From contig NC_092407.1 in assembly GCF_009017415.1 (NCBI RefSeq), positions 1 through 64,000 on the forward strand: 64,000 nucleotides of DNA. The letters are read 5' to 3'. Of the stretch, positions 1-42,941 are shown in pieces. This DNA is from Aspergillus flavus. Its lineage: Eukaryota > Ascomycota > Eurotiomycetes > Eurotiales > Aspergillaceae. A program made the position numbers and the translations under genes. Below the pieces are notes generated by a model. That model was not told the origin of the DNA. It searched no databases and was given only the letters and a program-made list of their open reading frames with translations. Numbering within the stretch: the first letter of the stretch is position 1; each line of letters starts with the position of its first letter.

Positions 1-130
1 CCCTAATGTTGACCCTAATGTTGACCCTAATGTTGACCCTAATGTTGACCCTAATGTTGACCCTAATGTTGACCCTAATGTTGACCCTAATGTTGACCCT
101 AAATGTTGGCCCTAATGTTGACCCTAATGT
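1..130. repeat. Telomeric repeat tract, chromosome end
   Basis: Tandem 12-mer CCCTAATGTTGA: eight perfect units, one 13-nt variant with an extra A and a terminal G in place of A (97-109), one more perfect unit and a partial one ending at 130. The complement is TTAGGGTCAACA, the dodecamer telomere repeat described for Aspergillus oryzae. Position 1 is therefore a true chromosome end with the C-rich strand reading inward. The degenerate unit lies at the centromere-proximal side, as is usual for old telomere repeats. Confidence 0.97.
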
Positions 131-4020: not shown

Positions 4021-5935
4021 TTAACATTTCAGATTGATCCCCTGTCTCTTCTCCCCCTCTCTATGCTCAAACATGATCTGCGCACTTACAAAAAGGCACA
4101 TCACAGCCGCCGTGACGAAGCCGGCATTAAACCAGCCTGCGAAGATGCCCTTGACCATCTCCTTGACATCGTCGACACCCATTACGAAACCTACGAGGCT
4201 TGCCACCATCATCATGAGGATGTTTCCTGTTGCCCCTATGCCACAAAGGATCCTGAACGTCTCTGGCCAGTCCCTCCACTTGCGTTTTGGGAAGATAATC
4301 ATAGCGATCACCTCAGGCAGGATGAACAATGTAGTTAGCCAACCCCACGCCAACAGACGCAGATTGATGTCGTGCCAAAGGGCGATGAAGGTGAATACTG
4401 CCAGGACATTCAACATGGTTTTGACCTTGCCACCTCCGTTGCCGCCAAGAGGAACGTAGATATACCGGACAATCCACCTGTTCAGGCTTCGATGCCAGCC
4501 ACGCCAAAATGCTAGTGTCGAATAATTGTCAGACATGCATCTGACCATGTTCTCCGGCGCGTCAAGTCCATCTACCAAGGCCCACAGTCGGAAGAAACGC
4601 CAAGGGATAAGCAGCTTCAGCCAGACGACGTGCAGGTTGAAATATCCAAGCATGGCGAGCTGGTAGGGAGTATATTGTGTCCATGAAGGTGAACTCTTGA
4701 TGATGGCCACTGCGTAAGAGTAATGCAGAACCAGCTCCATACAAAGGACGGTGATGAGGAAGCGCAGCCCGTAGAGAGAGGTCCTGACCATGGTTGTGGT
4801 CGGCAGGCAATTTCGCGACTGAAAGACGAAGTCGTTGAAGCTCAAAATTGGACCCGCGAGGTAAAGAGGTGCGTATAGCGTATAGGCAAAGTAAGTTTTG
4901 AGGTTAAAGTCCCGTAAAGCGACGCCATATGAAACTCTATCACGTTCGCTAAGGAACAAAGCGGCTACATGCTTCTTCTTAGGTTTAATTAGCGATTATC
5001 GTCGAGGCTTGCATGAATTCAATACTGACCTCGGTCAAATTCGAGTTACCCTCCGCTTGAGCCCAATAGTAGTCCAAATTGAATGAGATCAGGCGTAATA
5101 TCGAGATCTTAAAGAGTACCTCCCACCGAGGAATGAGACCACTGTAGCTGTCGATTCTTGCTCCAACATCTTGCGCAGCCTTGATATCCGGCAATAAAAT
5201 CCGAGCGATCACGGACAAGGGATATCCGCGGCAAAACTCGTTCGCGAACAGAATACCAACATTGAAGACCCAGGTGGCGACAGGCACGTAGCTTCTGGGA
5301 AGCTGTGTCGCAATCTTGAAGTTGGCATAGAAGATCAGAAAAACTTTTGCCGCCGAAACGCCGTGCAGCGCAATGAGAAAGATAATCCCGAAGCCAAAAT
5401 CAAAGAAGGTCCGACGCTGCAGTCTGGCGTCTGCAACGGCCAACGAGGATGGATCATGGGACAGACTGTTGTTGCTGCCATCCGGGAGCTTGTAATTGTC
5501 AATTCGCCAGAATGTGCCATACAGCTTGCGAAACAATGGATGCAGTATAAGAAGGGTTATGAGGTAAGATAGGTTGTCCCGAAAATTAGCGTACTGTGCG
5601 TCAGAGTTGTCAATCTGGCGACCAGGGATCCAGCCCCGAGACAATCTTTTCGAGAAAGAGTCCCAGCCAGGGCTTCCCGGTTTTGATATGTCATAGACCT
5701 GCTTCACCATTGTCGGAATAACGATGATGAAGACAAGATAATAGATACAGTACTCGATTGTCCACCATTTGGACGGTTTCGTGCCGGATAAGGGTGAACG
5801 TTTGTCCAGCTTTGAAGCAGAAGTTCTGGAAGCGTCACTTGCGGAGTTCTGAGACGCGGTAGTTGATTTTGCAAAGCGCATATCAAGGGTTTCTAAAGAG
5901 TAGAGCGACTTCGAAAAGTTATTCAGCCACTGCAT
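4021..5935 (-). CDS. gup1: GUP1-type membrane-bound O-acyltransferase
   Basis: Two exons (5935-5030 and 4977-4021) flank a 52-nt intron with a GTCAGT donor, giving 620 residues, the usual size for Gup1. The chosen start is the ATG opening MQWLNNFSKSLYSLETLD; a longer in-frame ATG at 6013 adds 26 unlike residues. The protein has many membrane segments and the MBOAT signature: LAGPILSFNDF, then YSTLAFWRGWHRSLNRW and FTFIALWHDI with the conserved catalytic histidine in ALWHD. Gup1 in yeast adds a very long acyl chain to GPI anchors in the ER and affects glycerol uptake, wall and lipid-raft order. A subtelomeric copy is probably a paralogue of a core gene; that is an inference. The reading frame is intact. 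Confidence 0.92.
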
Positions 5936-6678
5936 TGTGATATACTGGGCCGACGAGGTCGGGCCAACGAAAGCAGCGCAGACCGCGCTCAAATGATGAG
6001 GGAGGGACCGCAAAGGATCGGCTAGTTTGCGTCTGAGGGGCTCAGTGAACTAGATCAATGGCGAATACGTCTCATCAGCAAAGCGCGCATGGGGGAATGA
6101 TGGTGAGGAAAGAGGAATAGGAGAGCGAAGAAATGATGGGAAGTTGAAGCAATCTTGACTGAAACGTGGCAGGGAATGTTGTAGACTAAGAATAGGCGCG
6201 CTAAATTGCATCACGTGCCTGGCTTCTCAGGGTTTCTGGAAAGCATGCGTCCTCAGACGGTCTGTCGGCAGTTTTAATACCTGATTTCTGAGAAGACTTC
6301 AGCATACGATCTATATCCTATACCTTACTACCACTCGTCCCTTGTTAGATAAGGTCGATGACCACCCCGCGGCCTGCTTCCGCCCGAAAACTCTGTATAT
6401 TCTTGAGTCCTCTGAGTCCTTTCAGATCCCACTCCTCCCTTGCAGCTCTCTGAAACGAAGAGTGGTTGGCCTCATTTCCAACCAAAAACCGCCTGCTACG
6501 AAATTGGCAGCTATCCCTGTTATGGCGCGTGCCCTGTCCACCGGCTAATAGATTAGGGCAGCCGTAGATGATCAGCTTTAGAAATTGGCCATTATTATTC
6601 TATTATTATTCTGCCTTGTGTGTCCGCCTTTGATGAGGTACGCTAGACAAGGGTCTGTAAGAATCCCCAATATACTAG
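5936..6678. other. Upstream region of gup1, no gene seen
   Basis: About 740 bp lie between the gup1 start and the first recognisable helicase codon at 6679. No open frame resembles a protein I know. The part near 6340-6548 is open in one frame but has no recognisable content. The region probably holds the gup1 promoter and the worn 5' end of the mobile element to its right. Confidence 0.5.
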
Positions 6679-8720
6679 GGTATAGATGAGGACCTGCACG
6701 ATGGAGATCTGTATCCCGAGTCAGACAATGAGGGCTCCTGCCCTGATTCCAATATTGATGAGACTTTTAGTACGGAGACCCTTCTAACTGCCTTCTCTTC
6801 AATTAGCCGACTCTGGGACCGGGTACTACGTGATGCCCAACAACAAATTACTGCCCTGGCTGCACTGTCTCTTCGATGTCATTCCTTTTGGTTCGAACAT
6901 GTTCAACCACTTGACATTGCGAGCAATGTGCTATGCAAAGCTGCCGGTCTCAAATTTGCTCCTGCCATACTCCTCCAAAGCTGGGAGGCATGTCTCAGGG
7001 ACATCAATGCTCAAGCCGACCAAGATAATACTATTGGACCTGCTCCAGATCTAGATGACTTTAATGACAAAATTACTGACGGCATCTTGCTGCCGCTTCT
7101 AGTTGAGCCTGAAGCTATACCAGACGTGGAGGAGCGCGGGTCACGCGTAGGGGTCGCACCTACAGGTGCTTCACTGTCCAGTCTGGTCAGCGAGATCATT
7201 CCTTTAAACAGAAAGCAAGCCATAGTTGTCCAAAGGATTATTTCCGAGGCGCTCAGCTGGGCCTGTTTCCCATATGATTGGTCTCAGCGACAACAAACAC
7301 TTCTTTATGTAGGTGGTGAAGGGGGCGTCGGTAAAAGTCAAATAATCAAGGAAATTGTCGCAGGAATGGACTTGCTTCGCTGCAAATATGAACTTATATT
7401 TATGGCCCCGACAGGAGCCGTAGCTGATCTTATTTGGGGTAATACTTACCATACGTCTCTGGGCATTTCCTTAAACTGTTCTTGAGCCGCAGTGAAAGGC
7501 CTAAGAGTCCGTCGGCTGTGGTCACGTAAAATCATTATGGTTAATGATGAAGTTAGCATGACCGATCGTTCCACACTCAATACTATCAACAGTCACTGTA
7601 AATCGGCCCGATCGCTCGATAGAACATCTCCCGACCTGTTCAGTGGCTTACCGATCGTCATTCTCATGGGAGATTTTTACCAATTTCCTCCTGTTCGGAG
7701 TCAGCCATTATGGAAACCACCACAGAATGATGTAGATACCGACGGCAGACTTATCTGGCACCGGTTCAGTCAGGTCATCATTCCAGACGAACGGATGCGT
7801 CAGACGGAGGACGTGCCATACCAGTTACTACTTAGACGTGCACGAACCGGCAGCTTAACATCTAACGACGTTCTGATGCTGAATGGAAGAGCCATTACTT
7901 CGCTCGCAAATTCCCATCCGCAGGATACAACCGCCATAGTCACGCTCAATAGTCTTCAAACATGTCATCAATCGCCACCAAACTGAGAACTTCGCCGTGA
8001 TCAGACACCAGACTATCTACGTTTTTCCTTCCCTTGAAACGCGAACGAGATCGTCCGGCCTAGGAAACTCGAGACTCCGCGCAGATGACGTTCTTCACCT
8101 TCCTGACCACGGTACGGCAGGTCCGTTCCCTGAGACTCCTTCTCTATACCTATTTTATGCTAGTCATGCTATTGACAAATATAAACACGTCGGCTGGCTT
8201 GGTCAACGGGGCAACAGGCACAGCTGTAGGAATTGTTTTGGATCCCATAGGAAAGTTCCCTCGCAAATCGCATTTATATATCATAACTGGGCCAGCTGAG
8301 TTCTATACTTTGAATAATCACTATATTTTCTGCAACAAACCTCTAGTGTATCTTCTCTTCAAACCAGATCGCCCAAAGCTGATTTCACTCCAATCACTCG
8401 ACTCCAACATATTGCCTATCTTCCCACTTGAAGCTTTCCTGTCTCTAGAAGACTACTCCATTCGAAAAACAGATTCCAATCTTCCCGGCCTTTTGCTTGA
8501 CCAACTATAAAGTCCAGGGAAGAACACTTACGTCCGCCATTCTTGATTTCAAAGACAACCGCATGGCGCGAGGCCAACATTCGCACCGAAAATACTGCTC
8601 TATGTATGTCCAGCTTTCCCGGCTCCGATGGCTCAATGGACTCCATCTTCTACAGCCAGTCGACATGAAAGACCTCGATCGTCAACCGGACCCCCGCCTG
8701 CTGGAGGTGCGACATTTATA
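6679..8720 (+). pseudogene. Decayed Pif1-family DNA helicase, probably from a mobile element
   Basis: An open stretch from 6679, lacking an initiator ATG, runs into helicase motifs: Walker A GGEGGVGKSQII near 7315, APTGAVADLIWGNTYHTSLGI near 7405-7465, Walker B NDEVSM near 7545, GDFYQFPPV near 7668, and motif VI sequences NYKVQGRT and YVQLSR near 8500-8620. This is the order of Pif1-type helicases, such as those in fungal Helitrons. An in-frame TGA at 7483-7485 splits the gene between motif Ia and Walker B, another stop falls at 7984, and frames shift before the last block, so it is dead. I did not find a Rep/HUH domain or clear element ends, so assignment to a Helitron is only likely. Confidence 0.8.
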
Positions 8721-14304: not shown

Positions 14305-16696
14305 GGTTAGGGGTGGAAAGTTGGGGTTGAGGGTATGAGGCATCCCTGCCTGTGGTGGTATGGTACCCTTTTGAAACATGAATATGCTCTTGAGCAGAGA
14401 AGACATTCCTGCAGCCTTTGGTTATTTAGCGTCTGCCAATGTTGAGCTTGACGTCGGTTACTCACTGCCCCACTGTGGCCGAGGTTCGCCTTGATGGCTC
14501 CTACTGGCAGAAGCTCTCCATCACGCCGCTTCGAAAAGACACTGGAAACCGCTCCCATTTCTGCTTTATCGCCAACCTGGGTACCCGTTCCATTGATCTC
14601 TACATATGAGATATCCTCTGGAGTCACGCATGCCTTTCGAAGGACCTTATGGAACAATCGTTCCTGGGCAGCAGCGTCAGATGTTGTGATGGATGTAATG
14701 ACATCGTCCAGTCGTTTTAGTACCACAGCACCACTGAAGTCGGCGCGACAGTAACCATCTGCATCATCGCGATACGTCTTGCAATTCCCAGAGTCGGACA
14801 AGACTCCCGACCGGCTCAGACTGGTGAATGAATGCGAATGGATAATACGTTGGCGGCCCCTGCTACGGCCATATCGATGTCCTTTGCCGTTAAGCTCATG
14901 CAGGCAAGATGGATACGTGAACTTGTCGCTGCACATGCAGCATCGAGTGCATAGTTCGGTCCCTCCCAATTGAACTGGAAGGCCAGCCGACCCAATCCGA
15001 ATGCACGCTAAACAGCCTGTAACGTGTAGGCATCACACCCCAGTTTGCGATGGCCAACTACATGCCACTCATCATTACATTGACCGAAGAACGTCGCGAT
15101 CTTGGTCGGATCCGTCCACCTGGTCTGGCCATCCGAATATCCGGCCATTTCTAGGGCTTCGTATGCGTTCATTAGGAACAACCGATGGGCGGGGTCCATC
15201 AACATGGCTTCCTTGGGCGAGATGTGAAAGAATTTAGAATCGAAGTGTCCGGGATTATTCATGAAGCACCCGTGCCTACAGGTCATGGTGCATTTGCCGG
15301 GGCCTGCCGGTGGATGCTTGGGGCAGTAGTACTCCTTCACGTCAAAGCGATCGGGGGGGACCTCTTGGTGGAGGTCAACACCTTTCAAGATCACGTTCCA
15401 GAATCCTTCGAGGTCATCGCTGCCTGGTCCTTTTCCGGCCATGCCGATGACGGCGATACCGTATCTACTCTCTGGGGTCGGCGGCTTTGCAGATAAATTA
15501 TCGTCAAATAGAAACTTCCCTTCCTGCAGTCTGCAAAGACTTGAAAAGATAGGCTGCGTGGCTGCTGGGACCCATGCCTTTAAATCAACATGCCTTTATG
15601 TCCCCAGATTGGCGTTGAGCCGGCTTACGGCTTGCACAATGTTCAAAGGCCGTGACAAAGTTTGTGATACTGAAGCCCTCAGCAGATGACTCCAGCCGGA
15701 GTAAGCGGCGTCATGACGATCCTCATCCAAGCCGCATATCTTATATCCCAGGGGTAAGGGCGTATCCAGAAGTAGAGAATTCCCAACAATATAGTCAATA
15801 TCAGCTTCGGAGATGCTCAAGGTATGCTGAAGGGCATGAATATCGAGCTCATTCTTTGGGAGATTCTTTTGTGTAGGACATTCGTTCAGCACAAGCTCCA
15901 AGCTAGAAGGTGGTCCTATGACGGTGCTCCATCTGTCTTCATTGACACCAACCTTGGCTCTTTTAGGAGACGGAACTCCCTGTTGGGTCTTTGAGTCAGC
16001 CTACCACCGCAGGCTAGAAAAAGCCGGGGCATGGAAAACAAAGATCTTACCATGACATTTTGAAACTGTTCCAGTGTTTTACCTAGTTCCTTAGCCGGTA
16101 TTCCGAGGACGGCCCACCCCCAGGTTCCAGGGCACTCCTCCATGGCTCTTAACCTCACCAATATGAGATTACAGAGTCTTGCCCACACTCGACCCGCCTC
16201 TAGACATGCATCATAGAGAGACTTGAGATTCGTAGAAGTTGGCACGACTGCAGCACTGGATAGACCCCCGGGGATACCAATCACCTCCGGTCTGGGTCGG
16301 TTCGGGTCAAGCAATTGTGGCTCGCGGTCGATAGCCCTTTAAGTGGTCAGCAGTGCAGAGGTACATAAACCGCATGTCAACGAGGGAACAAAGCACATAC
16401 TTCAGTAGGTCCACGGCTCTAATGACGTAAATCAGCATGGCATGCGCCATCCCAAACTCGTCGCCGGTGTATCGATATTTCGCAGGGAGCTCTTGAAAAC
16501 TGGAGCAATTCCTAAGACTGTCTTGCATGGCTCGGTCCATAGCCCTGGTCCCCGACCTAATGGCCGAGAAGAGGCTATCCAGGAACGACTGAAGCCATGG
16601 TTTGGTTGCGGCTTGACTGTAGACATAGTCAATGCTGCTCACCCATCGATCTGTGACGTCTCCGAAAAGGAGGACCGTATGATGATTGGAGTCCAT
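14305..16696 (-). pseudogene. Truncated non-reducing polyketide synthase (SAT-KS remnant)
   Basis: Reading leftward from ATG 16696, the N-terminal half of a fungal non-reducing PKS is clear. The starter-unit acyltransferase (SAT) domain is split over three exons (16696-16401, 16336-16051, from 15988) with clean 64- and 62-nt introns. A ketosynthase follows, with GKCTMTCRHGCFMNNPGHFD, MDPAHRLFLMNAYEALEMAGYSDG, the active-site motif LDAACAATSS, GNCKTYRDDADGYCRADF, NGTGTQVGD (the usual His is Asn) and IKANLGHSGA. It is dead: in-frame stops TAA at 15596-15598 and TAG at 15008-15010, frameshifts near 14850 and 14455, and homology ends at about 14305 with no AT, PT, ACP or methyltransferase downstream. 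The KS resembles the clade of CMeT-containing NR-PKSs. It is the likely partner of the highly reducing PKS at 22.7 kb. Confidence 0.88.
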
Positions 16697-17820
16697 TGCT
16701 CGAGTCAATGGATACCCAGCAATAAAGGACTCTCACAATTGAGTATAAAGGCAATATAATATTGAATCTATGACACAATTTCAGTTTTTCGGGGCAGAAT
16801 AATCACACAATTATTTATAGCCATGGAACCGGCAGAACAAGATAATCTCTGAGGGACGAGTTGAATTTCTAATCTGGCATTGAGACGGAGAAATGATGCG
16901 AGTAAGGCAGTGTTCGGTGCCAATGAACATTGCTGTGTTGGCGAGAAGGCAATAGTGGTGTACTGTCTCCCCTCACTGGTACTGCTCGTATAATGATATT
17001 GTACTCATACACCCTTACCGGGATGATAATCTTCGTAAGCCCTAACTAGCTAGTGCAACGCCAAGGAAAGGATCTATGAGCCGTCTCTTTTGTTTCTCCG
17101 GCGGACGTGCATATCCAGAGGCTATGATTGACAAATGCCAAGTAACGACACTATTTCCGAGTACGGCGGAGGGTGGTTTTTCGGTCGAATTCGACCGCAG
17201 TTGGGGGCCAACTCTGGCTGGCTCATAGGATTGGACTATGCAGAGTACATGGGCTCGAATCCCACCGCCAGCATTGACTCATTGGTAAATCTCGGATGTC
17301 CTTATCATACGACTCTAATGAGAGACGGACCGAGGAAGAGTGACGCCATCCTCAAGCATATTGTAAATGCGAAGAATTAAAACCTTAATAATGCATGAAG
17401 TATACATTACTGGTTACTTGACATACATCTTTCTCGTGTTCTGATGCTTTTAAGTTCTAGCCTAATATATGTTATCTAGTAGTAGGAGATACTCAGGATT
17501 AAAAATATGTAACATACCTGGAGTTTATATGCTGGTCCATTGTGATGAAGATTACCCGGGTAATTAAGGAAAATTCGAATCTCGCAGTTCTAACCTTATC
17601 TTAATGTCAGACCTTAAGTTTTGAGTTGATTTGACTTGAATTGATGGAGATAGTAATTGGTAACTACAGCACAGACGTTATGGAGTTGCCGATCACGTTA
17701 TCTGAGGTTGGGATCACCTGAGGCTTCCCCTCTTCGTTTGTTCTCTCCTTTCCCAACCACTTCCACGAAGCTTCACACACATCTCCATTTCCATGTCCAT
17801 GTCCATGTCACTCATCCACC
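16697..17820. other. Divergent promoter region between the NR-PKS and the regulator
   Basis: About 1.1 kb separates two divergent starts. A short open frame at 17135-17380 has no family features and is not called. The region contains the 16-bp palindrome at 17182-17197, and close to the regulator start a TCCATG repeat (about 17790-17808). Confidence 0.6.
17182..17197. promoter_or_regulatory. Palindromic CGG-N10-CCG site, candidate cluster regulator operator
   Basis: CGGTCGAATTCGACCG is a perfect 16-bp palindrome with the inverted CGG triplets typical of Zn2Cys6 dimers. It lies between the divergent NR-PKS and regulator genes. A copy with one mismatch and three further half sites occur in the transporter/HR-PKS promoter near 22.24-22.47 kb. 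Binding is inferred from this recurrence. Confidence 0.65.
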
Positions 17821-20005
17821 ATGTCTGTTCCGCATGTTGCTCCGTCACATGACGGTTACTGGCAAGCGAAACGGCGAAAGGTGCGCAAAGGCACCCACAG
17901 TTGCTGGGAATGCAAGCGGCGCAAGATGAAATGTCGATTCGATCCGCGCGTTGTTAGTTCCTCCTGCAACGGCTGTCGACGACGCGGCTCCCGGTGTATC
18001 AGCCAGGAGTTCCCCGAGGACCTCGCAAATGTCCTTATGGGTATGGGATCCACTACCAGTGATGGCACTCCCTTTGACGGTAGCACTCGCGCTGCCACGC
18101 CCAGTGAGAGGGCAGATCATAGTATTCCCACGCCCACGTCAACGAACATGGAGCCTTTACGATACCATAAATCTTCCGAGGTCCTCTCTTCCACGCTTCT
18201 CCCCACTAAGAATTGTACAATTGTTACTGACTGCTTTCCAGCAATATCTTACGACCACCAGGAATGATCCCTCATCACGTAAATATGAGGGGTTGTCTCG
18301 GTTCTTGCATGAATTACTACCGTCGCGGGAGGATACGGAGAGGATCTGCAAAGCCAGTCGCCACTCTTCCATCCTCTCCCACGAATTATTGACGACGTCA
18401 TACACGACCCTCTACCAGGACGGCCTCCAAACCTCCGACAGTTTGCTGATGTCTCCGGAACCCACCATGCATCCTGTTTTGATCGCGAGGTACATGCTCC
18501 AGCTCGCCCTTTTCCTACAGCATCTTCCCCCGGATCTTCACAAGGAGATTCAAGGACTGTCGGAATCACCTCGAGCCATCATGGAACGTTTAGCAGATGT
18601 TGCAATCTATCACGTCACGACCAACGAGGAACTTATCGGCAGCATAGAGAGCCTCGAGTGCATCATGCTCGAGAGTTTATATCAGGTGAATATTGGGAAC
18701 CTTCGACGAGGCTGGGTTGCGGGTCGGAGAGCTATCAGTGTCGCCCAGTTGATGGGCCTTGATCGATCGGATAACCAGACCCGATACAAGGCGCTCGATC
18801 CCAGGACGAAATACAACCCACAGCTCATGTGGCTCCAGATCATCATTGTAGACCGCCATCTCTGCCTCCTCTTAGGTCTGCCCCAAGGCTGCACTGACCA
18901 TAGTATGGCCACTGAGACCCGCCTCGCCAACGACTGCCCCATGGGCCGTCTCGAGCGCCTGCACTGTGTGGTGATGTCCCGGGTGCTCGAACGTAACGCA
19001 TCCAAGCCCAGCTGTCCAGACCTTGCCGCCACCCGCGCCATCGACCTGGAGCTGCAGAAAGCCGCTGGTAACCTCCCGAGCAAGTGGTGGATGGTCCCCA
19101 AATTCGACCGGGCCGCCACCGACCTGCAAGCCGTGTTCTGGGATACGCGCCGCTTTGTCGTGCAGATCTGTCACTACAACCTGCTCAACCAGTTGCATCT
19201 GCCGTATATGCTGCGCTCCTCGTCGGCGGGGAGCCCATCCGAGTATTCGCGGATCATGTGCGTCAATGCGTCGCGCGAGGTTCTCTCGCGCTACACCTCG
19301 CTCCGCAGCTTCAACCGCATCGCGTACAGCTGTCGCACCGTCGATTTTCTCGCGCTGATGGCGGCCATGGCGCTCCTCCTCGCACATATGGATAGTCGTC
19401 GCGACGGGGCGGAGAATCTGCTTGCGAACCAATATTTGAGCGATCGCGGGATGATCGAGCAGGTGCAGGAGAACATGAATGAGATGAACCGGCTGAATTC
19501 GGATGAGCTGAGCGCGCAAAGTGCGGATTTGTTGAAGGCCTTACTGGCGATTGACGTGGACAAGGGGATTAGGAGGGTGAGTGTGAGCGAGGCGGGGAGT
19601 GAGAACTCTAATGACCTGGGGCTGGAGGAGGAGGGCGTGGTCCGTGTGCATATTCCGTATTTTGGGATTATTCGCATTATACGCGATGCGACGACAGGAA
19701 CCATGCATCGGGATGAGGTCCATCGGTTCGGCACCACCACGAACAATACTCCTAACACCCTCTCCTTCCAAGTCGCCCACACCGCCGATTCCCATGAATT
19801 CCCCACGGCTTTCGCGCACCACGACCATCAACAGCAGCAACCATGTCAAAATACCTTATCTGACCCCGGTATTTCCCTGACACCATCCCCGCCGACGCAG
19901 GGCGGGTATCCAGAACTAGCCGCAGGCGGCGAGGACTGGGCGTTTCAGGGGGTGGATATGGCGTTTTTCGAGAGTATCATGAGGAATGCTGGGGGCGAGG
20001 TTTGA
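17821..20005 (+). CDS. Zn2Cys6 transcription factor, likely polyketide-cluster regulator
   Basis: Exons 17821-18180 and 18242-20005 give 707 residues. The acceptor has a good CTGAC branch and CTTTCCAG; the donor GTCCTC is weak, so the junction could move. Residues 28-59 form the binuclear zinc cluster: C28-x2-C31-x6-C38, then C49-x2-C52-x6-C59, with a basic KRRK patch before it. The middle (about 150-450) is the helical fungal-specific regulatory region (MLQLALFLQHLPP, SLECIMLESLYQVNIGNLRRGWVAGRRAI, LMWLQIIIVDRHLCLLLGLPQ). The C-terminus is polar and Q/P-rich. The frame is intact although both neighbouring PKS genes are dead. The gene ends tail to tail with the transporter, 240 bp away. The likely targets are the CGG-N10-CCG sites in this cluster. 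Confidence 0.88.
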
Positions 20006-20244: not shown

Positions 20245-22082
20245 CTAACTAACCACTTGATTCTCGCCATCGACTACCTCCGCCTTCTTCGCGTCTGCAC
20301 CCTCTGTCGCCGGCTTCTTCCCATGATCCGGCAGCTTCTTCAACGGAATAATCAGCGTCAGGAGGACCGAAAACGCCGCGCACGCCAGCGAAAAAGCAAA
20401 CACATCCTTGATGCCCACCATGTACGCGGCGATCACCGCCGTCAAATCGTCCCCGCCGAACGCCTTTTGGAGTTCTGAGGCGCCGGTGCCCAGGACCAGG
20501 GCGGGATCGAGGTGGGATGCACTGGTGAGGACGGTCTGTAGCATGCGGTTGGCGAAGAGGGATTGCGCGATGGCGACAAAGTAGGCGCCGCTGAGTGTCT
20601 GGCACACTGGTGGGGGGGTTAGGACACACTAAGGGCAACGTGCGAATGCTGGTTGCATAGGGAATACTTACTAACCATGATTCCGGTAGCACTGGAGACG
20701 TCTTCAAGCTTTGAGAAGCCCTGCACAGCCGTCATGGGGACCTGATTGCAGATCCCAACGCCAAAGCCAAAGAGCACCTCGGCACCAATGTACATGGCTT
20801 GGGAAGAGTTGACATCCAGGATGTAGATCAGGGCCATGCCGGCGGTCATGATGAGGGCACCGATGAACTCGAAGGGTTGTGTGTAGCGAGTCTTTCCGAT
20901 CACACCACCGCTGACCACGGCTCCTAGGGCGAAGAAGGCGAGGAAAGGGAGGGTGTTGACGCCGCTCCTGACGGCGGATTGCCCGTGGATGGACTGGAAG
21001 TAGATGGGGAGGTAGAACATGACTTGGTAGAGGGCGGCGTAGGAGCTAAAATGTTGACCCCAAATGTTAGCCATAGCTGGGATATGAATCCCGAGGAATC
21101 ATGAGCGACCTTACATGTAGCAAAATAGCGCATTACTCCATGTCATGCGCTGTTTCAGAATGCTAAAGGGAGCCATGGCGCGCGGGCCCTGTAGCCATTC
21201 GGTCACGAAGAAACCAATGGTGAGTACAATCCAAAGGACCAATGTTGCGATGACAGAGCCGTCATTCCATGCTTTAGTCTGTCCACCCCATTGTAATGCC
21301 AAAGTCAAGCATACGAGAGACACGAGGATCAAGCAGAAGCCCGGGAGATCAAGGGTGAGGAGGATCTCCCTCCACGTGGCGGGGACGCGCTTGATGTGCT
21401 CGGGGATGCGAAGGAATAACAATAACAGAACAATAATGGGACCACCAACGGGCAGGTTGATCCAGAAACACCATCTCCAGGTCACTCCGCTTGTGAATGC
21501 ACCACCAATCACTGGCCCAAGAATGGTCGACACCATGAAGACCGCCATCCAAGTTCCGATGAGAAGCGGATGATTTCTCGGCGGAGCCACATAGTTGATG
21601 ACGATGAGCGTGCCTCCGAGGACACCAGAGGCTCCCCAACCTTGAAGGGCACGACCGACTATGACGGACACGCTATTTGAAGCTGCAGCGGCCACAATAC
21701 TGCCCACCAAAAAGATCCCAACCGCGCTGAGATACGTCCACTTCACGTTGGCATACTTGAACAGCTTGCCCCATAGCGGCGAGGCAGCGGCTGCGAGGAC
21801 GAAAGTCGCGCTTCCATACCAGCCCACGTCGTCGAGCCGGCGGAAATCGTTGGTGATGCCGGGAATGGCGGTCGCGATGATACCAATCTCCAGGGAAACG
21901 AGGATGGTGCTCACAAAGATAGTGAACATGATGAGCCCAAGTCGGATGCCCGTCACATACTCGGGCTCGGTCGTGCCATTGGGCTCTTCAGCTGGAAAGT
22001 CCTCGCCCGTACTGGTCGAGCCAGGCTGGCTTCCGTCCAGCTCGGCTTTGTTGCTGCTCTCGAGGTCCGAACCGTGTGCCAT
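20245..22082 (-). CDS. DHA2-family MFS efflux transporter
   Basis: Three exons (22082-21115, 21045-20672, 20606-20245) with 69- and 65-nt introns join in frame to give 567 residues. The protein has a polar N-terminus of about 45 residues, then some 14 membrane segments. DHA2 signatures include GWYGSATFVLAAAASPLWGK, VGRALQGWGASGVLGG and LGPVIGGAFTSGVTWRWCFW (motif C plus WRW). Later segments contain FYLPIYFQSIHGQSAVRSG and SSATGIM...CQTLSGAYFVAIAQSLF. Such pumps export drugs or secondary metabolites (AflT and the asperfuranone-cluster transporter are of this kind). It is intact and divergent from the HR-PKS, sharing a 620-bp promoter with several CGGTCGAA motifs, so it probably exported the cluster product. 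Confidence 0.93.
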
Positions 22083-22240
22083 TTTCCTTAGATGTCAACA
22101 CATCGATGGGATGAGAGGCTGGGTTCTCGCAACTTGTAGTCTTCAGTTGACAGAAAGACATGCTGTCGATGACAAAAAACCACATTTCGATGACAAACAA
22201 GCACACCCGGGGGTTGAGGAGGAAAGACATACAATTGACA

Positions 22241-22701: not shown

Positions 22702-25700
22702 ATGCCTTCTGCACACACCACGGTGGACGTCCCAATTGCGGTGGTGGGCTTAGCATGCCGTTTTCCCGGCGATGCGAGTTCCCCATGCAAGTTCTGGGAC
22801 ATGCTAAAGAATGGCAAAGGTGAGCAACGAGCCTTTTCAATCATGAAATATGCTGCATTGGCAGTGGATTGACAGGAGTCCTAGATGCATACTCACCAAC
22901 ATCAACCAGATGGAACTCGAATGCTTTCTACCACCCAGGCGGCGACCGATCGAATGTACTCCCCACAAAAGGTGGTCACTTTCTGAGAGAAGATCCTTAT
23001 GTGTTCGATGCCGCCTTTCTCAATATCACCGCCGCGGAAGCCATCGCCCTCGATCCCAAACAGTGGATCGCCATGGAAGTGACATACGAAGCCTGTGAAA
23101 ACGCTGGCATGTCTCTTCAGCGGCTTTCTGGCACCCAGACAGCCTGTTACATCGGCTCTGGTGCAAGCGACAATCGAGGAGCAGTCGAGCGGGACTTCTT
23201 GCACAATCCAAAACATCATCTCCTCGGGACCGGAGATGAGATGATTTCCAATCGCATCTCTCATTTTTTCAATATCCACGGTCCCAAGCGCCACGGTGCA
23301 GACCCCCTGCTCGTCCAGTTTTATGGCTACCCATCTGGCCTGCTAAAGCTTGAAGTCAGGGGAATCACAGATGGCCATTACGGGTGGCGTCAGTCTGATG
23401 CCCACTCAGGACTTCACTACACATCTTAATAATTTGAATTTCCTCAAGCCCGAGGGCCGGTCGAAAGCCTTCAATGAGAGTGCGGGTGGATATGGCCGTG
23501 GTGAAGGTTGCGGAATCATCATCCTGAAACGGCTGGCAGATGCAATCCAAGAAGGCGATGACATCCGTGCCATCATCCGTGCCACTGGCGCTAACTCCGA
23601 TGGCTTTACACAGGTTGGTAAGTATACTCTGGTGTCAACAGCGCAGTATAGGGCTCATGTGTCCCCAAAACTGAACCAAGAGTTGCTAACGTTGTTGTTT
23701 GCAGGGTCATGCCGTCTCTGGAAGCACAGACTGCACTCATAAACACGTATACTCGTACAACGGGTTTGACTACTCGACACAATACCGTCGAAACACACGT
23801 AAGTAGAACATCCGTCAGATCCAGGGGGTTTACCGTTACCAACCACAGCCTTAGGGGACGAGGACCAAAGCCGGAGATCCAATTGAAACCAAGGCCATTC
23901 ATAGCATCATCGGGAAAGGCTCATCAAAGTCGCGCAAGCTGTTGATAGGAAGTGTTAAGCCTAACGTGAGTCTGGTGGATTGCTACTGACATCATGTCTA
24001 AGGATGCTGACCTGAAATCAGATCGGCCATCTCGAATCTGCTGCTGGGGTATCGGGAACTATTAAAGGCATCCTATCTATGGAGTACAATCTTAGATGGA
24101 CATCTCGCTTGATATCCCTGGAGATGCTGGGTATGTCCTGCCAGTGCTGTGCGAGTGTAAGAGACATGGCTTCAAAGAGTTGTCGTCGAATATCTACACG
24201 TTTGATTGTACAATGTCGAAGCTCAACCTATCTGTTATTGACTTTCGAGTCTCGGAGCTCGAGAATGACGCGGGTGAGCAGGAGAGCCAGCAGCTTGAGG
24301 TCGATCCGGCTGAGATCACCTCTGAAGTGCGCTGGAACTATGGTCTTGAGGTGCTGGAGCCGGACGGAATCAAGAGGGTGGTGTCGACTGTTGCGGCAGA
24401 AGATCGTGCCGTCGAGGTAACCTTTTTCGTTTCATGATTCCCCCCTCACCGTCATCCTGCATGAGCGGCACGGTGGCTCCTACTTGAACCAGACTAACAA
24501 GCACTGCAGCTAATCCGTCTGTACCTCCACAACAACCCGGCAGCCACCGTGATTGAGCTCGCGCCACAATACGAGGCTCTTAATCATGCGACAATGTCAT
24601 TGCTGCCCCGCGGAACCATTCCCTCCAGCCATATCAAGTATGCTGTAGCAGGTATTAGTAAGGAGTCTGAAGAGCAGGGTGCCAGCACAAACGTGATTGG
24701 AAAGTCCTTCGACCTGGGTGATTCGGATGACCCATTGCCCGCAGACATTGCGGCGGCTGATTTGCTAGTTGTTCCGCTATCTATCAGCAATCACAAGGAT
24801 TTGGGCGTGTTACTGCGTCGTTTCTCAAGCCTAGGCAAGCCCGATGCAAGCCTGGTTCTTGCTATGGACAGCAGTTTGAATGTATCTGCCGCCATCTTGG
24901 AGGCTGAAGTATTTGAACGCATCTTTGATGTTCATACGTCAGTTGCGCTATACAAGAAACGGCAAACTGAGCATGCCAACGGGCCCACTAACGGCTACAC
25001 TAAAGGCACATCTACCAAATTCGACTTGGTGATAGGCGAGCCACCTGCAACAAGCAGCGGCAGCAGCTCTTTCTGCTGTGCTCTGCAAGCCACTCTCGGA
25101 ACCAGACTTTCACAGTGTCCGCAAGCTGCCGCCGAACAGCGACCGCCTGGTCTGGATCACAGCCGGCAACAATGCGTCCATGGGTGTGGTCGACGGCATT
25201 CGGAGGACTATGAGGAGTGAGGTGGCGGGTCTCAAGTTCCAGATCTTGCATCTTAGTAACCTTGAGACAGCGTTGCAGTGGGTCCAGCCCTTGCAGGTCG
25301 TATTGTGATGTCAGATACTACAGATGATGAGTTCCAGGAGCGGGATGGCATGCTCCAAGTTGCTCGTATCTTCAACAGTCCCGTGGGAAATGAGGGCGTA
25401 CGCCGCTGCCTGGAGGCCTCCGTTCGTATCCAGGGGATCGGAGATCAAGAAAGATTCCTATTGCTCACAATATTGAAGCCAGGACTATTGGACACTTTGA
25501 CATTCATCGAGGACGACCGCATGAAGGTGCCACTTGGAGAGTCAGAGATCGAGGTCGATGTCAAAGCAACAGGTGTCAAGTAAGTCAACCTGCCCAGATT
25601 GCCCGAACGTATCCGTTAACGCGTTCTTCAGCTTCAAAGACATCATGGCGGCCATGGGCCTCGTCGCAGTCTCCCTCATCGGCAATGAAGCCAGCGGCAT

Positions 25701-39446: not shown

Positions 39447-40139
39447 CTAATAGCCCTTTTCTTGCTTATCCCCTTCATGACCATGTTTCTTCGCAACAAC
39501 CATTCGATCTGAATGCAGTGACACACCCGCCTCGGTCACAATCGTATCCAACGCATCACGCTTCAGAAACATCATCTCACAGTGGTTGATATGAGCAAGA
39601 TTATTATACCGAGCTTCAATCACCGTATCCATCTCAGCAGCTAAGAACATCTTCTTCCAGTAGTATGCACAATGGACAAGATGCCACTGATGTGTGGTAA
39701 AGAAGTGCGATCCAGTCTTTGGGAGCATGGACACTTCTTCAAGTGATAGAGTCCGTGTCTTATTTTTATCGGCATAGTACATCCAGCTTCCATCGGGGTT
39801 CGGGCCTGACGTCTCGAATTGCGCTAGAAGTTCGTCGTTTCGACAGGCTGGAGGGAGCCAAGCAGCTGCAATCGAGTCATATTTACAGCTATTAGCAATA
39901 GCTTCTTCAACAGTCTCTCCACAATTACACGATATTGGCCTGCGTGATTGGATCAAAGTGTATGTTCGGTATGTCAAATCGAGGAAGCCGAATGTGGCTA
40001 ATAATATAAGGAAGGTATATCTGACTCGAAAGGCAAGCGTCGGACGTTGTTTTGGGATGTGGGGGACTTTGTAATGAGCTTCAAAATGCTCACAACCATC
40101 CGAGCTATCTTCCTCCAGAAGGGGTTTGTATTTGGTCAT
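39447..40139 (-). CDS. UstYa-like (DUF3328) membrane oxidase, RiPP locus member 1
   Basis: One exon of 230 codons from ATG 40139 (MTKYKPLLEED); the frame stays open upstream but has no earlier ATG. A single membrane helix (about residues 40-60, TFLILLATFGFLDLTY) is followed by a lumenal domain with CNCGETVEEAIANSCKYDSIAAAWLPPACRNDE and two HxxHC motifs, HLVHC (about 153-157) and HINHC (about 183-187). Paired HxxHC motifs behind one helix define the UstYa family, which catalyses oxidative cyclisation of dikaritin RiPPs such as ustiloxin. It lies 730 bp downstream of the precursor on the same strand. The domain is a divergent member, so the exact reaction is open. Confidence 0.8.
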   Translation of the reverse strand: MTKYKPLLEEDSSDGCEHFEAHYKVPHIPKQRPTLAFRVRYTFLILLATFGFLDLTYRTYTLIQSRRPISCNCGETVEEAIANSCKYDSIAAAWLPPACRNDELLAQFETSGPNPDGSWMYYADKNKTRTLSLEEVSMLPKTGSHFFTTHQWHLVHCAYYWKKMFLAAEMDTVIEARYNNLAHINHCEMMFLKRDALDTIVTEAGVSLHSDRMVVAKKHGHEGDKQEKGY

Positions 40140-40869
40140 TTTTCTGGACGATCGAGTTTGGCTCAGCAAGGGTCTCTCGGTAGAGGCTGTAGTGCTTTGC
40201 AATAGAGCTGAGATGGTCGTGGTGAGGTAGTCAGACTGAGGCTACTTAAGATGGTGCTCTTGTACTAAGGTACATAGGACTCTCACGTAAGACGTAATAG
40301 CTTTGATCTAGAAAGAAATCCTACTACATTTATATCGAATACATGCACCCCGCTCGAGCGAAGGGCTCATGGAGGCAAAAGTACTACTGCCCTTTTCTCG
40401 CCCCAAGTCAAGGCTACGGATCCTTGCCACAGACCCCGACGTTACATTGAAGGATCCGATGTGCACCGGCCAGCGGGCGTAGGCACTGAATCGTGGAGGC
40501 AAACCAATGCCACGTAATAGAGAGCCATCGGTCAAGACTAGGCTGAAGATTACTCTGGGGCGGGGGTAAAGAAATAGGAGTTCCTCAGAGTTGTGAATAC
40601 TGAGCTCGCCCATGTACTACAAGGTTCGATTCAAGCAGATTAGACCGCTCTCTTATAATCTAGAACTCCTTAGTGGGTTTGAGCAACGGCGATAAGTACA
40701 TCGGATACTAAATTACACGACAGGCTTGATGCAGCATTTGGCATGGATAGGGTAGGGTCTAGAGACATGCAGAATAGCGGAATATTGGACCATGGAGACT
40801 TTCAATTCCCGGTGTACTATATGACACAAAGCCGGTCATACTGTATGGCACTTGTGATAACAGCAGTGA
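40140..40869. other. Spacer between the RiPP precursor and UstYa-like gene 1
   Basis: This region probably contains the promoter of the UstYa-like gene and the precursor 3' region. A minus-strand open frame at 40308-40613 (101 codons with an ATG) has no recognised features and is not called as a gene. Confidence 0.45.
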
Positions 40870-41258
40870 CTACTGATAGAAGGGGATGGCCTCACTCTCC
40901 TCAGCCCGCTTTTCATAGAAAGGAATAGCCTCACTGTTGTCCGCACGACGCTGATAGAAAGGTATGACTTCACTTTCTTCCTCCCGCTTCTCATAGAATG
41001 GAATGGCCTCACTGCTGTCTGCGCGACGCTGGTAGAATGGGATAGCTTCGTTATCCCCCGCACGCTTTTCGTAAAACGGGATGGCTTCACTGTTGTCGGC
41101 ACGTTTTTTGTAGAATGGAATTGCCTCGTTGTCCTGGCCAACTACATAACCAAAGTCAGAACTAGAATCATTGATTTGGCGGTCATTTTACCTATGGGTG
41201 ATGTATAAGCCAAGGGTGCACCAGTGGCTAGGAGTGCGACAATCATGTTAAACTGCAT
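40870..41258 (-). CDS. Dikaritin-type RiPP precursor with seven EAIPFY repeats
   Basis: Exon 1 (41258-41192) encodes a signal peptide, MQFNMIVALLATGAPLAYT. A 50-nt intron (41191-41142, GTAAAA...TAG, branch CTGAC) leads to exon 2 (41141-40870); total 112 residues. After a short linker come seven units. Cores are EAIPFY six times and EVIPFY once; each core is followed by K, E or Q and, except the last, by KR or RR, then a variable acidic linker such as ADNS or AGDN. Six of the dibasic sites suit Kex2 cleavage. Signal peptide plus near-identical repeats cut at KR is the design of ustiloxin, phomopsin, asperipin and epichloecyclin precursors. Two UstYa-like genes flank it. The core-terminal Tyr is the expected site of ether or C-C crosslinking. 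I do not recognise this core from any named compound. Confidence 0.93.
40873..41133 (-). repeat. Tandem 39-bp coding repeats of the RiPP precursor
   Basis: Units lie at 41133-41101 (33 nt), then 41100-41062, 41061-41023, 41022-40984, 40983-40945 and 40944-40906 (39 nt each), and 40905-40873 (33 nt). Codons for the IPFY core vary at third positions (ATT/ATC/ATA, CCA/CCG/CCT/CCC, TTC/TTT, TAC/TAT) while the amino acids do not. This points to selection on the peptide, not just recent duplication. Confidence 0.92.
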
Positions 41259-41364
41259 GGTGGTGGATGATTCTCAAAGGAAGTGTCTCAATGGTAGTTG
41301 GAATGAGCACAGCAATGGGTCACGGAAGACGATACGGGCCTATCCTCCAGTGTCTATGGACAGG

Positions 41365-41371
41365 ATTTATA
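41365..41371 (-). promoter_or_regulatory. Candidate TATA box of the RiPP precursor
   Basis: TATAAAT on the minus strand, 107-113 nt before the precursor ATG, in the divergent promoter shared with UstYa-like gene 2. Confidence 0.5.
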
Positions 41372-41934
41372 TGAGAGCTGCTAACAGATCTGGGACGTGT
41401 GCTGAAGTGGAGCGACGTACAACTTGCGCATAGGTTCGAAATCTAGATTCGATTTTCGACGTCCTGACGGTGGTCACAAGGATGGTAATACTGAAGAAGG
41501 ATTATACTGCTTTACTCTAAAGGGCTAGGATACATGGTCAGAATATAGTGGATGTAACATGGATGAGGGTCCGGTGTATCCTACAAGCCGGAACATCTGA
41601 GGGGAAGCCCTAAGCCCGCATGAAGGATCTATATCTCCTCTTCGCCAAGTTTGCCAAGGGTTGTTGTCGCGGAATCCCGACGGACTTTCTGGGCTACGAT
41701 ATCCCGCCCTCATGTATTGCTTGGGCGTGACAGCACTGGTATCTTCGTCTAGCTGGTTATTCCAAGCCTTCAGTACCTTTCAGGGCGGTTTATGCGATAT
41801 TGCGACCGGTAACGACGCGCAGCCTTCCTCACAGCAGCCATTTTCCCTCCATCTCATAAACCTATTTCACAAACCTGAAGAGCTCTGCCACTCTTGATAT
41901 CCCCTTGGTTTTATATCGCTTGTCTGACTAAAAT

Positions 41935-42941
41935 ATGCGGAAGGCCCAAGATGACTTCAAAGGCTTAGACGACGGCATTTGTTCGAGCTTGAGTCAAGAG
42001 GATCTAGCGAAACCACTCCTGATTGGCAATGACATTGCCGATAGACATGATCATGGCCAAGGCAGGTGGATAACGAGAGCAACACAATGGGCGTACCCCA
42101 AGGGTAACGCCATGATGCTATGGCTCACCTTCCTAAATCTGGTGTTGCTAACAATATCCATTATTCTCTTGAATTTGGCATTCTCGCGTCAGGCCTACGT
42201 CCAGTACTTGAGCGATCAGGAGAAATGGAAGTCAACATCTCATTACGGTAACACTGGATTAATCCTCTACTCAGTTTACACCTAACACTGACCTTCTCAG
42301 CACCTCTGCTTGACCGTGTCGATATTCCAAGAGTTACCTTAACCCCAAATGCATCATTGTACGACACTGATCCGCCTTCGATTCTGCGGATACCGTCAGG
42401 GCCTGAAGCCGACGCCGAATGGTTCCGCATCGGCACCGGAGTCATGCCAATTATCATATCCTCCGATGAAATCTACAAACTCGGAAAGGACCCCTCTGTT
42501 GCCGTGAAGATTCCAGAAGAGCATGGATACGGTAACGATGCGTACATCGCACAGACGGAGGTGTTCCATCTCCTTCACTGCCTGGACATGTTGCGGAAGG
42601 AGATATCCTACGAACATTACTATTTCCCTCGGTTTGGAAACCATCCGGATGCTGAACACATCGCACATATTAGTCATTGCATAGATATTCTGGCCCAGGC
42701 CATTAAATGCTCCAGTAGCGTTGACGTGATCCTATTCAACTGGGTCGAGGGATGGGAGCAGCCCTTTCCTGATTTCAACAATCAGCATGTTTGTCGGGAC
42801 TTTGAGACGCTTCTGAGATATGTGAATGAGAATTCGGTGTCACGCTCCGTGTGGAAAACTATGAAAGAACCCCCTGCGGGTTACGTGCGTCTACCGGAAC
42901 CTGCGCCGGCAGGACCAGCTGAATCAGATAGGAATATTTGA
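41935..42941 (+). CDS. UstYa-like (DUF3328) membrane oxidase, RiPP locus member 2
   Basis: Exons 41935-42247 and 42301-42941 (53-nt intron, TCTCAG acceptor) give 317 residues. A cytosolic tail of about 60 residues precedes one membrane helix (MMLWLTFLNLVLLTISIILL). The lumenal part is a textbook UstYa domain: LTPNASLYDTDPPS, then EVFHLLHCLDMLRKEI (HxxHC at about 194-198) and HIAHISHCIDIL (HxxHC at about 227-231), followed by a Cys-containing tail with FNNQHVCRDFE. UstYa and UstYb act together in crosslinking the Tyr of ustiloxin. This gene is divergent from the precursor with 676 bp between starts, suggesting shared control. Confidence 0.9.

Follow-up and report, generated by a model that had tools for sequence, protein, structure and literature searches.

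The trio of genes on C3

The stretch analysed here, referred to as the window, comprises bases 1-64000 of the Aspergillus flavus contig NC_092407.1 (C3), in a genome of 37.7 Mb and 8 contigs. Between positions 39447 and 42941 it contains three genes that form a candidate locus for a ribosomally synthesised and post-translationally modified peptide (RiPP): a precursor gene, P, located between two genes, A and B, whose products carry paired HxxHC motifs. The coordinates and content of the three genes, including both pairs of motifs, hold as they had been given in an initial annotation made from the sequence alone. The features of the trio are the following:

39447..40139, minus strand: gene A, single exon, 230 aa, with HLVHC and HINHC; most likely a remote UstYa relative
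40870..41258, minus strand: precursor gene P, 112 aa, with a signal-like N-terminus and seven E[AV]IPFY cores between KR/RR sites
41258-41192, minus strand: P exon 1 (predicted model)
41142..41191, minus strand: P intron, 50 nt, GTAAAA...GTAG (predicted; same position in the C7 paralogue)
41141-40870, minus strand: P exon 2 (predicted model)
40873..41127, minus strand: Kex2-site repeat array of seven cores, one every 39 bp; it starts with the first base of core 1 and runs up to the final codon ahead of the stop
41935..42941, plus strand: gene B, 317 aa, PF11807 UstYa, with HLLHC and HISHC
41935-42247 and 42301-42941, plus strand: gene B exons (predicted)
42248-42300, plus strand: gene B intron, 53 nt (predicted)

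The precursor and the selection on its cores

The cores of P, six EAIPFY and one EVIPFY, recur every 13 residues, and the seven that the initial annotation had described between KR/RR sites are all present in the 112-residue model. KR or RR is found one residue further on from six of them, and a single residue separates the last core from the stop codon. The published definition of a Kex2-repeat precursor asks for three or more tandem units, each 8 aa or longer, that lie between Kex2 sites (PMC7329392), and P contains seven units spaced at 13 aa with six KR/RR sites between them; the tandem repeat finder TRF detects the same region as a 39/78-bp array. By hydropathy the N-terminus of P is signal-like, with a mean of 2.07 for its best 11-mer, and similar N-termini are present in the precursor relatives of C7 and of Polytolypa that are described below.

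Among the seven core copies there are 19 base differences relative to the core consensus, and 18 of them are synonymous; each of the six codons varies at its third position, and among the first and second positions a single column varies. When the same number of random changes as observed was placed in each core copy, none of 200,000 simulations gave one amino-acid change or fewer (minimum 5, mean 13.4). Likewise, the ratio of nonsynonymous to synonymous differences (pN/pS) was 0.02 in the cores versus 0.35 in the spacers, values to be taken as indices and not as rates since the synonymous sites are almost saturated. This pattern indicates that the cores of P are under strong purifying selection, and the array looks like an old, translated sequence selected for its core.

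A second trio on C7

A genome search revealed a second trio on contig C7. The region C7:806123-806680 matches gene A with 73% identity over A residues 38-223, C7:807725-808132 matches the precursor exon at 50-53%, and the strongest PF11807 match of the genome (C7:809105-809839) lies beside them. The three genes, A' and P' on the minus strand and B' on the plus strand, follow the order and strands of the C3 trio. P' is predicted to have 151 aa and ten cores (EAIPYY eight times, EAVPYY and EAIPFY once each); its predicted exon 1 has 67 nt, as in P, and its intron is at the same place, which backs the intron proposed for P. Elsewhere in the genome, the IP[FY]Y pattern followed by a basic site gave one match, on C6, which is at chance level (a control with the pattern reversed had 1 forward match and 2 reverse matches).

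When the open reading frames (ORFs) of at least 40 aa in the window were compared with a 20-kb stretch of C7, the 18 rows that matched at E<=1e-3 were all in the three trio genes. The suggestion of a minimal pathway is supported by this result, given that A, P and B are the whole overlap between the window and the C7 20 kb. In the gene-A tree, the C3 and C7 copies are located in different starred groups, each with an A. arachidicola protein; read from this tree, the duplication is older than the split between A. flavus and A. arachidicola.

The two double-HxxHC proteins

Gene B is a clear UstYa by its profile score, 187 bits against a PF11807 cut-off of 25, and this PF11807/DUF3328 gene, the neighbour by which dikaritin loci are recognised, adjoins the precursor gene. 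Its spliced model is 100% identical, over the full length, to A. flavus F9C07_2281309, a tag for which no literature mention was found. The double HxxHC motif is the suspected active site of DUF3328 proteins (PMC12048977).

Gene A has no Pfam match, and none to PF11807 at E<=0.01 or even E<=1 (curated cut-off 25 bits); 6 of the 65 members of its family match PF11807 at E<=1, the best with an E value of 0.0059. Nevertheless, a comparison of profiles aligned the family of A with that of B across both HxxHC motifs, at a probability of 64% and an E value of 6.5e-5 for this one pair of families. Taken with the failure against PF11807, this alignment makes a distant UstYa relationship most likely for A, which has conserved cysteines of its own and fits better into a separate, remotely related double-HxxHC family. 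Therefore, of the two UstYa-like proteins initially annotated, the assignment stands for B, whereas A falls short of the family cut-off and retains a distant relationship. Each of the six motif residues of A is at least 90% conserved among 65 sequences; in the conserved cysteine region of the family C85 and C99 are invariant, and C71 and C73 almost so. The predicted model of A includes one long N-terminal helix (residues 35-65), which is likely a membrane anchor, and two helices that carry the HxxHC motifs. A gene-A profile found no relative in the prokaryote genomes or viral contigs searched, as expected given that the family is fungal.

Relatives in other fungi

Of the 543 protein candidates in the precursor search, a single relative passed E<=0.01, namely AJ80_09370 of Polytolypa hystricis, in which EVIPFY and EAIPFY cores are present. 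Its neighbours in consecutive locus tags are a relative of B (AJ80_09369) and a relative of A (AJ80_09371). The clustering of the precursor with UstYa genes, on which the initial annotation had made its reading depend, is thus seen at C7 and in Polytolypa.

The search with A gave 64 proteins (E<=1e-3) and the search with B gave 58 (E<=1e-30). By equal listed contig sizes, in a listing that gives one contig size per cluster, 15 of the 64 A relatives were assigned to the same contig as a B relative. Seven of these 15 pairs have serial locus tags, with 0-2 tags in between, namely those of Polytolypa, Emydomyces, A. arachidicola, A. bombycis, A. tanneri, Parahypoxylon and Knufia; among the seven, the gene between A and B was seen to be a precursor in Polytolypa only. 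Close relatives of gene A, 94% to 81% identical, are present in other Aspergillus species.

Proposed pathway and alternative explanations

The adjoining UstYa gene, the purifying selection on the cores, and the recurrence of the trio at C7 and in Polytolypa lead us to consider it quite probable that the locus encodes a compact dikaritin-type (ustiloxin-type ribosomal peptide synthesis, ust-RiPS) RiPP pathway; the dikaritin-type design proposed initially thus finds support in the repeats, the Kex2 sites, the adjoining PF11807 gene and the recurring trio. The trio probably makes a small ring-shaped peptide, so far unlinked to any known product. The three genes, the repeats, the selection on the cores and the recurrence of the trio are established by the sequence itself, and from them we infer secretion, cleavage, an order of steps, an action of A and B on the peptide, and its chemistry. 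The precursor would enter the secretory pathway, and in the Golgi it would be cleaved by a Kex2-type protease after KR/RR and trimmed by a carboxypeptidase, giving peptides such as ADNS-EAIPFY-E; up to the Kex2 cleavage these steps are those of the published ust-RiPS model (PMC7329392). B, together with A, would then oxidise the core. A probable crosslink would join the phenol of the invariant C-terminal Tyr to a beta-carbon, that of Ile3 for example, and the ends of the peptide would be trimmed by general proteases. Ile3 is proposed because, across the 17 copies of A. flavus, the only residues at position 3 are the beta-branched I and V and position 5 is F or Y; given this variation at position 5, the phenol of position 6 is the constant one. 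It has been reported that Kex2-repeat precursors (KEPs) with DUF3328 neighbours are the richer ones in Tyr, at 65.6% of the repeats versus 38.2% (PMC7329392).

Several results weigh against this pathway. Ustiloxin and phomopsin need a tyrosinase, and none of the 15 PF00264 matches listed for the genome is located in C3:1-64000, so that the absence noted initially is borne out. The core has the order Ile-x-x-Tyr, the reverse of the Tyr-x-Ile of ustiloxin and phomopsin, and one core of AJ80_09370 is EAIPFC, with Cys replacing Tyr. P gave no self-match among the 543 protein candidates and may thus be unannotated in the collection searched. The predicted models matched no solved fold, and therefore no catalytic site can be read from the structure. 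Within the listing, linkage is not universal: 49 of the 64 A relatives were unpaired, and in A. steynii the A and B relatives are on contigs of different listed size.

Among the alternatives, the one that survives best, though we regard it as unlikely, is that one or both enzymes oxidise the peptide (by desaturation, hydroxylation or otherwise) without cyclising it through Tyr, and the product is a linear modified peptide. Homologs of UstYa in the phomopsin pathway are reportedly needed for desaturation as well as for cyclisation (PMC10512285), gene A is divergent, and its relative on C8 is located near a precursor without Tyr in its repeats; nevertheless, the phenol of the last position is kept in 17 of 17 A. 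flavus copies, as expected if it is used. Considerably less probable is a linear secreted signalling peptide, a pheromone-like KEP located next to unrelated UstYa-like genes. It has been reported that 78% of the KEPs surveyed have no DUF3328 neighbour and that the yeast mating factors among these are linear (PMC7329392), but the trio occurs twice in one genome and again in Polytolypa, relatives of A and B are close together in other fungi, and in the same survey the mating-factor and pheromone KEPs almost never have DUF3328 neighbours, with three exceptions. Finally, that the C3 trio is a decaying, disused copy, with C7 as the working locus, is hardly credible, since despite its subtelomeric position (telomere-type repeat at 1-130), its seven cores versus ten on C7 and its more variable spacers, the three predicted frames are all intact, the core protein is nearly invariant while third positions vary at six codons, and gene A has the close Aspergillus relatives mentioned above.

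Comparison with known dikaritin pathways

The core of asperipin-2a, also from A. flavus, is the Tyr-containing FYYTGY, and its pathway is not known to include a tyrosinase. As in the dikaritin-type pathway proposed here, the asperipin-2a cluster is compact and has a Kex2-repeat precursor and one UstYa-type DUF3328 gene (PMC7329392); it comprises four genes (PMC10512285). The C3 locus differs in its core, EAIPFY, in a second, divergent double-HxxHC protein, and in that the two paralogous loci have no partner in common beyond the trio. Phomopsin and ustiloxin resemble it in their signal peptide, Kex2 repeats and UstYa genes, with the reservation that the N-terminus of P is signal-like by hydropathy, and the phomopsin core YVIP has Ile-Pro in common with that of P (PMC7329392). 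Apart from needing a tyrosinase, both pathways are larger, with 15 genes for ustiloxin and 5 DUF3328 genes for phomopsin. UstYa-family enzymes are also present in the epichloecyclin (GigA) and victorin pathways, whose cores differ from EAIPFY. Both products are RiPPs with Kex2-repeat precursors that are counted as dikaritins (PMC10512285).

Five dikaritins only had been reported by 2022 (PMC10512285), and the 2020 survey, which was based on annotated proteins and Pfam hits, contains, across 1461 strains, 1758 KEP genes that have a DUF3328 neighbour (PMC7329392). By the published criteria of repeats, Kex2 sites and an adjacent DUF3328 gene, the predicted trio counts as a dikaritin-type locus, of which many have been predicted, and its less usual feature is the second enzyme, gene A. 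No IPFY/IPYY core named for fungi was found in the literature searched, outside which lie the 2016 Aspergillus survey and the 2020 supplement; an earlier listing of the precursor in the tables of these surveys (Nagano 2016, Umemura 2020) is possible. The trio is a very small unit that occurs in duplicate in a studied species, with IPFY and IPYY as natural variants of the core, and is well suited to asking the role of each HxxHC protein. The Onygenales are represented both among the relatives found here and in the KEP type G-6 (#13). This type is Y-containing, has DUF3328 neighbours in 46 of 49 cases, and overlaps with the genera of these relatives in Aspergillus, Colletotrichum and Monosporascus (Umemura 2020); by this similar host range, type G-6 and the EAIPFY family may be identical.

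The wider gene-A family

The A. flavus genome contains seven gene-A matches, and the three with at least 40% identity (C3, C7 and C8) have a KEP nearby. The C8 protein (C8:740k), which is 40% identical to A, is located about 1 kb from a predicted Kex2-repeat precursor:

C8:735001-745000, 5033-5740, minus strand: gene-A relative, 40% identity
C8:735001-745000, 6747-6998, plus strand: C8 precursor, 83 aa (predicted with a repeat filter)

The C8 precursor, a single case obtained with our own repeat filter, begins with a hydrophobic segment and contains three DDGAIRIPVKGVPEP units, of which the first two precede an EKR; the units lack Tyr. As background, ascomycete strains have a mean of 5.25 KEPs (PMC7329392). 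The genome profile search listed no PF11807 match on C8 at E<=0.001; PF11807 matches over the HxxHC region were found for C8:740k (0.0034) and C8:470k (5.1e-5), both under the cut-off.

These observations suggest that A-family genes accompany Kex2-repeat precursors outside the UstYa loci as well. Tentatively, and with somewhat less than even confidence, we propose that gene A founds a second fungal RiPP-modifying family outside the Pfam UstYa, which would partner Kex2-repeat precursors both with a UstYa (C3, C7) and without one (C8, DDGAIRIPVKGVPEP repeats). If this is true, fungal RiPP surveys defined by DUF3328 would miss the loci without UstYa, and the family, if composed of RiPP enzymes, would be a marker for fungal RiPP loci overlooked by DUF3328-based mining. 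A general link of gene-A relatives with KEPs is weakened by the four distant matches (C4:219944, C3:4260443, C8:470385 and C2:4571051), for which the repeat filter found no KEP within approx. 5 kb. The branch of the C8 protein in the gene-A tree is long and weakly supported (89/35), and joins of long branches were flagged; the labels for a B relative on the same contig changed 2 times versus a shuffled mean of 3.8, a result that tells little, as 49 rows were unlabelled.

One of the distant relatives, at C3:4260443, adjoins a PF11807 match. In C3:4256001-4266000, the two (4431-5300 on the minus strand and 5751-6152 on the plus strand) face each other head to head, and the repeat filter found no precursor closer than approx. 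5 kb.

Neighbouring genes and other observations

A 12-bp telomere-type repeat, CCCTAATGTTGA, is present in 10.8 copies at window positions 1-130, as found by TRF-type tandem repeat finding, and for this reason the start of the window is likely the chromosome end. Thirty window ORFs were scanned against Pfam. In the vicinity of the trio, DUF3632, LOR and an arabinofuranosidase were matched on one flank and a dynamin-type protein on the opposite flank. At greater distances the scan gave HET, AAA and helicase-type proteins and pieces of ketosynthases, together with an MFS transporter, an APH-type protein, an acyl-CoA dehydrogenase at 29.0-30.1 kb and, at 62.8-64.0 kb, a flavin amine oxidase. No neighbour of this list had a match in the C7 20-kb stretch, and for this reason they are not counted as pathway genes, although a distant helper is possible. 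The initial annotation had seen no P450, methyltransferase or peptidase nearby. For P450, none of the 108 genome matches listed is in the window, with 92 of 262 candidates scored; neither a methyltransferase nor a peptidase was found among the 30 ORFs scanned, no genome-wide search for either having been made.

Matches to TPR_7, EncFtn, Cpf1 and other Pfam/NCBIfam families in the repeat proteins were rejected as repeat artefacts. Some of them exceed a curated cut-off by their summed score, as does TPR_7 in P, with 30.7 bits versus 27.9; in this match and most of the others no single stretch passes on its own, and the three weak stretches that do (two in the C8 precursor and one in the C7 precursor) are all under their family cut-offs.

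Outside the trio, ketosynthase matches are present on both strands of the window, at 14310-15595 and 22824-23426, and between them are the MFS transporter (21114-22094) and a Zn-cluster-like ORF just below the cut-off (17722-18264). On C5, a large Kex2-repeat precursor with GTTVDDISEALYGAWGGI units (C5:116001-126000, 5989-6780, plus strand) lies amid several PF11807 matches (C5:114463-121277) and, with a tyrosinase match nearby at C5:128300, is a candidate for a bigger dikaritin-type locus; the GTTVDDISEALYGAWGGI core loosely resembles the YVW[G/A][G/S] motif (PMC6339444). Likewise, at C5:4100758-4115396 a P450, two PF11807 matches and a tyrosinase are located close together, a composition that fits a putative ustiloxin-type cluster.

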